A DNA stretch of 64,000 nucleotides from Paludibacteraceae bacterium (lineage in GTDB: Bacteria > Bacteroidota > Bacteroidia > Bacteroidales > Paludibacteraceae): the NCBI GenBank assembly GCA_024400125.1, contig JAKSNG010000002.1:1-64000 (forward strand). The letters run 5' to 3'. Below are positions 62,710-64,000 of the stretch, one piece after another. The notes under the pieces were generated by a model. The model searched no databases. It saw only the letters and a program-made list of their open reading frames with translations, and was not told the origin of the DNA. The translations under genes and the position numbers were made by a program. Every line of letters begins with the position of its first letter. Within the stretch, counting starts at the first letter, position 1.

Positions 62710-62741
62710 TTTGCATATATGCAAAATAAACCGTACCTTTG
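62710..62741 (+). promoter_or_regulatory. Promoter of the MNT/HEPN pair
   Basis: -33 TTTG (62710-62713), 20-nt spacer beginning CATATATGCAAA, -7 TACCTTTG (62734-62741). It has TTTG-N8-CAAA, one base longer than the divergent modules, and no leftward -7 partner. Confidence 0.8.
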
Positions 62742-62766: not shown

Positions 62767-63084
62767 ATGCAAGCACAACCTTTTATAGAAGATTTGTCAC
62801 GAGTTGGGAAGCAAGTACTCCCTAAGGACGCGTCATTATGGCTTTATGGCTCCCGTGCTCGAGGCAATGCACATGATGGCTCTGATTGGGACGTACTCAT
62901 TTTGTTAAACAAGGAAAAACAGGAGTTGAATGACTTTGATGAATACTCCTATCCTTTAATTGATTTTGGTGCGCTTAATGGTGAAATTGTGTCGGCTCAA
63001 ATCTACACGCAAAAAGAGTGGAAGTCTATGTCATACACACCATTCTATAAAAACGTTGAACGTGATAAAATTGTAATACTATGA
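62767..63084 (+). CDS. MNT-type minimal nucleotidyltransferase (antitoxin)
   Basis: 105 aa. G28-S29 (YGSRARG) and the DxD pair D40/D42 (SDWDVLILL) form the nucleotidyltransferase site, with a third acidic residue D66 (LIDFG). MNT proteins neutralise HEPN toxins, in studied cases by AMPylating or otherwise modifying them. It overlaps the HEPN gene by 4 nt. Confidence 0.88.
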   Translation: MQAQPFIEDLSRVGKQVLPKDASLWLYGSRARGNAHDGSDWDVLILLNKEKQELNDFDEYSYPLIDFGALNGEIVSAQIYTQKEWKSMSYTPFYKNVERDKIVIL

Positions 63085-63482
63085 GTTTGAGCAATGAGGA
63101 ACGACATATAATGGTAACCCTTGAATTGGAACGTGCCCGCAAAATCCAATCGGAGTTTTCTGTGTATCAGCAAAATGAGTTGTGGAGCACTCTTGCAAAC
63201 AGAATGTATTATGCTGTATATCATGCCGCGATGGCGTTGCTTATTGCTAATGGTTTGCATGCGGGAACGCATCAAGGTGTTTATGTATTACTGAATCAAT
63301 ATTTCATTAAAGAGAAACTATTATCAGCAGAACATGGTTCATTGTATGCTCGTTTACAGACGATGAGGGAAAAGGGCGATTATAACTGCTTTATTGAAAC
63401 TACATCTGCGGAGTTGCTGCCAATATTACCTAAAGTTTCTGCTTTTATAGATGCTATTGCGATATTGGTTCAAGATATTTAG
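63081..63482 (+). CDS. HEPN-domain protein (toxin of MNT/HEPN pair)
   Basis: 133 aa, all-alpha. R41-MYYAVY-H48 has the R-x6-H form of the HEPN RNase motif. The region ANRMYYAVYHAAMALLI is typical of HEPN partners of MNT antitoxins. Its stop lies at the 5' edge of the structured region that follows. Confidence 0.85.
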   Translation: MSLSNEERHIMVTLELERARKIQSEFSVYQQNELWSTLANRMYYAVYHAAMALLIANGLHAGTHQGVYVLLNQYFIKEKLLSAEHGSLYARLQTMREKGDYNCFIETTSAELLPILPKVSAFIDAIAILVQDI

Positions 63483-63485
63483 TCT

Positions 63486-63510
63486 TTCTCTCAGACTATA
63501 AACGAGAGAA
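63486..63510 (+). other. 7-bp hairpin after the HEPN gene
   Basis: TTCTCTC (63486-63492) pairs with GAGAGAA (63504-63510) over an 11-nt loop. The T-tract after it is short (CAATTTTGG), so it is at best a weak terminator. Confidence 0.5.
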
Positions 63511-63518
63511 CAATTTTG

Positions 63519-63848
63519 GAAATCCACGCGAGGGAATGTGGGCGGGAAGTGTCCCGAGTAACCCCCTCCTAAGGATGGATTTCGAGGACATAAAACGGCA
63601 CAAAGTGCCGCGATAGCGTTTACTAACGCTTGTGATCGACTATTGAAACGTAGGAAATTTCATGTCTTTTTCGAGAACAAGTAAGTAGTAGATGCTCATG
63701 GTGTGATTATTCTCACACGTGCGCATATCGCGCATGGCTTTCAAAACTGAGATACACACGCGTGGGTTTCTAATTGCTTATTCGAAAAGACGGGTTCTTC
63801 CTACGACCTCAATAGCGGATGAGCAAAAGTGAGAAATCCGCGTTTTTT
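63519..63848 (+). ncRNA. Candidate structured non-coding RNA or structured leader
   Basis: There is no ORF of coding character, but many exact complementary segments nest well. GAAATCCA/TGGATTTC (63519-63526/63576-63583) encloses GAGGG/CCCTC (63530-63534/63564-63568) and CGGGA/TCCCG (63543-63547/63552-63556). CGGCAC/GTGCCG has a 3-nt loop (63596-63610). AGCGTT/AACGCT (63615-63630) is closed by CGAT/ATCG. A long-range helix runs CTATTGA/TCAATAG (63640-63646/63809-63815), CGTAGGAA/TTCCTACG (63649-63656/63798-63805) and GTCTTTT/AAAAGAC (63664-63670/63785-63791), enclosing GTGTG/CACAC and TGCGC/GCGCA hairpins. It ends in an intrinsic terminator. I compared it with tmRNA, RNase P RNA, 6S and SRP RNA consensus elements from memory and saw no match. 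Confidence 0.6.
63815..63848 (+). terminator. Intrinsic terminator at the end of the structured region
   Basis: GCGGAT (63815-63820) pairs with ATCCGC (63836-63841), followed by G and six Ts. Its first base is shared with the long-range helix, so the two structures abut. Confidence 0.75.
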
Positions 63849-63928: not shown

Positions 63929-64000
63929 ATGATTATGAAAAACAAATTCTTTAATCGGTTATTCTTGCTCTCCACCGCACTAATAACCATGTCAGTTAAT
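63929..64000 (+). CDS. Start of an exported protein (3' end outside window)
   Basis: Open from ATG 63929 (or 63935) to the window end: MIMKNKFFNRLFLLSTALIT then MSVN, a typical signal peptide. No promoter of the TTTG/TAnnTTTG type is seen in the 80 nt between the upstream terminator and the start. Only AATAAACAACT duplicated at about 63867-63890 is visible. Transcription may therefore depend on read-through of the structured RNA. The mature protein cannot be identified. Confidence 0.6.
   Translation, partial: MIMKNKFFNRLFLLSTALITMSVN

Follow-up and report, generated by a model that had tools for sequence, protein, structure and literature searches.

The RNA encoded near the end of the window, the whole 64,000-nt stretch of Paludibacteraceae DNA analysed here, belongs to a family in which two complete and mutually exclusive folds are conserved, both with support from co-variation. 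The copy in the window very probably acts in cis as a transcription attenuator. In the best reading of the data, the leader behaves like a transcription attenuator or riboswitch leader yet fits no Rfam family, and it represents a new class of transcription attenuator. A search of Rfam 15 at the gathering score matched no family anywhere in the window, and relaxing the threshold to E ≤ 10 gave chance-level matches only; ARAGORN found neither a tRNA nor a tmRNA in the window. When the homologues were compared with Rfam, only the DUF805 and DUF805b motifs were matched, and these lie outside the leader RNA. There was no T-box match in the window, and no conserved leader ORF was seen by eye in the 5' domain. 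No description of the leader RNA was found in the part of the literature that was covered; thousands of candidates from the human microbiome are listed in PMC8040213, and the leader RNA could be among them. The original prediction of a new RNA class, in the form of a large riboswitch-like leader, is thus supported by the absence of an Rfam match, by co-variation, and by the presence of a promoter, a terminator, and a downstream gene on the same strand.

Two alternative folds of the leader RNA

Positions 63500–63860 fold at −127.4 kcal/mol compared with −92.8 ± 5.0 kcal/mol for dinucleotide shuffles (z = −6.96), with none of 100 shuffles matching this energy, and the reverse strand of the region likewise folds well (z −5.35). 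The fold energy and the strong co-variation in the family indicate that the predicted structured RNA is genuine. The long-range helix described originally corresponds to P2, the strongest co-varying helix of the family, and the unit closes with a terminator as proposed. Its start, first placed at 63519, is moved back to about 63481, where it overlaps the HEPN stop codon, because of an H-type pseudoknot predicted to begin at that codon. Similar H-type pseudoknots were seen by eye in several 5' domains of relatives, and a second type of 5' domain is present in the homologue alignment. The nine compatible helices drawn originally make up just one of two competing folds, the second being invisible to a reader who drew compatible helices. 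The features of the locus are listed in the table.

Table. Features of the leader RNA and its neighbouring genes in the window
Feature	Position	Strand	Basis or pairing
TAnnTTTG promoter-like box (TACCTTTG) ahead of the MNT/HEPN genes	62734..62741	+	sequence
MNT nucleotidyltransferase gene	62767..63084	+	Pfam PF01909, E 2.1e-9
HEPN-domain gene, stops where the RNA starts	63081..63482	+	Pfam PF05168, E 3.2e-8
Predicted H-type pseudoknot of the 5' domain (AGUC/GACU and UUCUCUC/GAGAGAA interleaved)	63481..63510	+	inferred from sequence
Remaining variable 5' domain (GAAAUCCA/UGGAUUUC hairpin and GGCAC-AAA-GUGCC hairpin)	63519..63613	+	fold
Conserved core of the leader RNA	63614..63848	+	covariance model R1, 185 bits in the window copy
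Segment a (GCGUUUAC)	63616..63623	+	with e (ON) or in small hairpin P1 (OFF)
Segment b (CUUGUGAUCGA)	63629..63639	+	with d (ON)
Segment c, 5' arm of long-range helix P2	63640..63657	+	with h
Segment d (GUCUUUUUCGAGAACAAG)	63664..63681	+	with b (ON) or g (OFF)
Segment e (GUAGAUGCUCA)	63688..63698	+	with a (ON) or f (OFF, helix P3)
Segment f (GCGUGGGUUUC)	63760..63770	+	with e (OFF) or terminator 3' arm j (ON)
Segment g (UUGCUUAUUCGAAAAGAC)	63774..63791	+	with d (OFF) or terminator 5' arm i (ON)
Segment h, 3' arm of P2	63795..63814	+	with c
Intrinsic terminator (GCGGAU/AUCCGC stem and U6)	63815..63848	+	sequence, swap test
Terminator arm i	63816..63826	+	sequestered in the antiterminator fold
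Terminator arm j	63833..63842	+	sequestered in the antiterminator fold
Exported-protein gene, 362 aa, signal peptide	63929..64000, continues to contig position 65017	+	

The OFF fold, obtained by RNAalifold and pair counting, is comprised of P1, c:h, d:g, e:f (P3), and the terminator i:j. Pairs were counted over 83 aligned matches, including three spurious antisense matches; 36 of the 40 pairs show changes on both sides (0/500 shuffles), and 96.5% of cells are paired compared with 35–45% when the partners are slid. The ON fold, consisting of a:e, b:d, f:j, and g:i, was recognized by reading the conserved sequence and then tested, and it holds the two terminator arms apart. In the genus alignment it is 96% paired with double changes at 8 pairs, which none of 500 shuffles reproduced, and its mean energy is −77 kcal/mol, shuffles folded with the same mask giving about −55 kcal/mol. 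Because the ON helices are absent from the aligning model, they were tested independently of alignment columns by a swap test, which asked whether cognate segments complement each other better than segments exchanged between homologues do (53 non-redundant homologues, 5000 permutations). Every helix of the ON fold (a:e, z −6.7; b:d, −10.3; f:j, −9.8; g:i, −9.9) and the tested helices of the OFF fold (c:h, z −27.8; d:g, −20.5; e:f, −10.6; i:j, −5.8) gave 0/5000, whereas 13 of 14 control pairings had |z| ≤ 2.0, the remaining one reaching −3.0. Co-variation in the homologues thus supports both folds. The overlaps that make the folds exclusive are themselves conserved, with b:d and d:g sharing about 7 nt in 53/53 homologues, d:g and g:i about 9 nt in 52/53, and g:i overlapping the terminator stem in 45/53. 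The pattern recurs in the 13 short forms of the RNA for b:d, f:j, g:i, c:h, d:g, and e:f; i:j and a:e were without significance in the short forms alone, so the two-state claim there rests on the other six helices. The b:d helix of the window copy contains two G-A mismatches.

Distribution and genomic setting of the copies

A DNA search found copies in 16 of 61 genomes, all of one genus and several with more than one copy. In the genus (Paludibacteraceae, Bacteroidales), a covariance model of the 235-nt core detected the RNA in 174 of 178 genomes, often with at least 12 copies each; the source genome carries eight, one of them partial. In a sample taken across the order, the same model detected the core in 64 of 295 genomes, which represent 42 of the 183 genera covered. 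Other named carriers are MAGs of Muribaculaceae, Bacteroidaceae, Candidatus Colicola, and Candidatus Scybalocola; elsewhere in the class, further families gave weak matches to single short copies. The copies L201–L209, from other families of the class or order, are short forms of 155–170 nt that lie ahead of exported-protein genes and in which the two-state pairing is largely retained. Some copies (L021, 1120–1500; L024; L025; L028) are partial, fused, or decayed, which suggests recombination between copies.

Among 130 distinct copies, the Bacteroidota promoter motif TAnnTTTG occurs 60–85 nt before the core in 87 cases compared with 2.7 expected, its distance to the core peaking sharply near 72 nt, and the terminator is present across the family as a conserved stem followed by a U-tract. 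Gene calls around the copies were mechanical. The first called gene within 400 nt past the terminator lies on the same strand in 99 of these copies and on the opposite strand in 12, and the first called downstream ORF is on the opposite strand in 16/125 copies. A same-strand downstream gene usually begins 0–130 nt past the terminator, with many polysaccharide genes starting 0–3 nt from it, and a TAnnTTTG box intervenes in only 9 of 130 copies; in the window copy no such box was found between the terminator and the exported-protein gene. Within the genus, surface-polysaccharide operons or exported proteins predominate downstream, the former encoding UDP-galactopyranose mutase (GLF), FdtA, glycosyltransferases, GtrA, pyruvyl transferase, DegT, MBOAT and other acyltransferases, and an ABC transporter, and the latter including proteins with BspA/InlB repeats; in other genera kinases, helicases, and defence-like proteins are found additionally. 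The copies thus look like cis-acting 5' leaders. A small protein family (KTYRDExGxVxGYG...PRDYExxPL) recurs near leaders (downstream of L054, L057, L009, L165, and L110; L251:1713-2132, minus strand), and the one member compared with Pfam, that of L054, gave no match. In a Muribaculaceae genome the gene after one leader copy is predicted to encode an AAA-ATPase/PDDEXK_9 protein (L173:4863-6422, minus strand).

Polysaccharide operons as targets and an early terminator are also features of leaders served by a specialised NusG of the UpxY/LoaP/RfaH type or of an RNA-only processive antitermination element of the EAR/put kind, and such an identity for the present RNA is possible but unlikely. The source genome has a single NusG-like gene, which scores below the UpxY cut-off and, being located between secE and rplK, is the housekeeping NusG. 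No UpxY-type paralogue is detectable in this genome (99.4% complete), although a very divergent one is possible. EAR is included in Rfam, and the lack of any matching Rfam family argues against an EAR/put-like element.

The original prediction also allowed for a new class of non-coding RNA, and a trans-acting structured RNA with its own promoter and terminator, for which the downstream gene would be incidental, agrees with the own promoter and strong terminator of most copies. This explanation is a little less probable again, given the strand bias, the close spacing of the downstream gene, and the rarity of a promoter in between. In many polysaccharide operons the start codon lies a few nucleotides from the terminator U-run, and constitutive termination would not predict a conserved second fold that captures both terminator arms. 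A recombination or mobility element (integron attC-like, intron, or retron) spreading by structure would fit the multiple copies, the decayed fragments, and the accessory genes on either side, but is very improbable, as conserved G-U pairs and the U-tract terminator indicate selection at the RNA level, the promoter position is conserved, Rfam gave no intron match, and viral contigs gave zero matches to one exact pattern.

The least probable explanation is that the RNA is a component of the adjoining HEPN/MNT toxin-antitoxin unit, as a dedicated partner of which it had originally been considered. The window RNA does start at the HEPN stop codon, and toxin-antitoxin or phage-regulator genes are frequent upstream of other copies. 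However, the constant association with a toxin gene that would mark a type III toxin-antitoxin RNA or a HEPN/MNT partner was not seen; the neighbours vary from copy to copy and the upstream genes span many unrelated families, HEPN/MNT being one among many, with only a handful of about 178 copies following a HEPN or MNT gene. Where a copy has no promoter box of its own, a toxin-antitoxin or phage-regulator gene tends to lie 40–200 nt upstream. Of 27 upstream genes tested, which were chosen non-blind, 8 encode HEPN, MNT, YoeB, PIN, or Fic domains and 4 RhuM or KilA-N, with DUF2442, DUF3990, Kinase-PolyVal, and HTH_3 as further domains, compared with one AbiEii among 14 more distant genes. With that choice of genes the link is suggestive, and in promoterless copies the toxin-antitoxin promoter may drive both the leader and the surface gene. 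In the window copy TAnnTTTG is absent within 330 nt of the RNA core, and the TAnnTTTG-like box ahead of the MNT gene is, judged by its sequence, the probable promoter of the entire MNT-HEPN-RNA unit. Genes of these types lie directly upstream of the promoterless copy in the window (62767–63482) and of L017, L023, L064, L100, L101, L211, L214, L226, L229, and L243; AbiEii, Bro-N, and ORF6N genes are found ahead of promoter-bearing copies too.

Proposed mechanism of attenuation

In a cis-acting attenuator of this design, the 5' hairpin (a:e and b:d) would be the first structure made by RNA polymerase, since it is complete before its competitors f and g are transcribed. On emerging, f and g could invade this hairpin to give d:g and e:f, stacked on c:h, after which the terminator i:j would form and transcription would stop (OFF). 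If the 5' hairpin resisted invasion, f and g would be left to pair with the terminator arms (f:j and g:i), and polymerase would read into the surface-gene operon (ON), in which state c:h could form as a loop-loop contact. The OFF fold is more stable than the ON fold by 11 kcal/mol on average, with the c:h kissing contact uncounted, indicating that the ON state requires kinetic trapping, kissing, or a factor; the gap is about 4 kcal/mol in the window copy. The decision between ON and OFF is therefore likely to be kinetic or factor-dependent. We infer the direction of the switch and the co-transcriptional order as its decision point. A trigger presumably exists, and the choice would probably be set by the 5' pseudoknot domain or by a factor binding there, which would make the 5' domain the natural sensor. 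A more far-reaching proposal, which we advance tentatively and with appreciable doubt, is that a new signal-sensing RNA class runs an attenuation regulon in uncultured gut Bacteroidales, in which one signal, acting via the 5' pseudoknot domain, would control accessory surface operons, 8 to 12 or more in each genome, through a branch-migration-like strand exchange, with two long hairpins trading partners.

Comparison with known leader systems

The leader RNA resembles the attenuation leaders with 1:2, 2:3, and 3:4 pairing (trp, TRAP, T-box, and many riboswitches) in its chain-pairing segments and in the opposition of antiterminator and terminator. No TRAP repeats or T-box were found in it, nor was a leader peptide on inspection by eye. 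Its exchange involves a pair of stacked helices on either side, a-b with d-e and f-g with i-j, whereby each arm of the terminator is captured. EAR (eps-associated RNA) and put are similar as structured leaders linked to antitermination, EAR occurring in exopolysaccharide operons, but neither gave a covariance match, and the leader RNA holds its own intrinsic terminator. The DUF805 and DUF805b motifs share a 5' UTR with some leader copies but are separate, shorter, downstream elements and a distinct RNA. These motifs (Rfam RF03081 and RF02914; L063:1779-1813, L064:1779-1813, L067:1707-1741, and L101:1809-1873) lie 36–156 nt past the leader terminator and before the next gene, so that some operons appear to have two stacked leader elements.

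The capsular polysaccharide leaders of Bacteroides that are served by UpxY, which belong to the same phylum, and the LoaP and RfaH systems are comparable in their long 5' leaders, their surface-polysaccharide operons, and their antitermination logic. In contrast to these systems, the leader RNA carries terminator and antiterminator itself in a genome with no detected UpxY paralogue, and it is found ahead of exported-protein genes too. Surface polysaccharides and exported proteins determine how gut Bacteroidales interact with hosts, with phages, and among themselves, and the known means of control in the phylum are promoter inversion and antiterminators of the UpxY type. If the proposed reading is true, an order-wide, multi-copy leader RNA with two conserved folds would constitute an additional layer of control, hint at how uncultured rumen and hindgut species control their surface-polysaccharide and exported-protein loci, and provide a directly testable switch.
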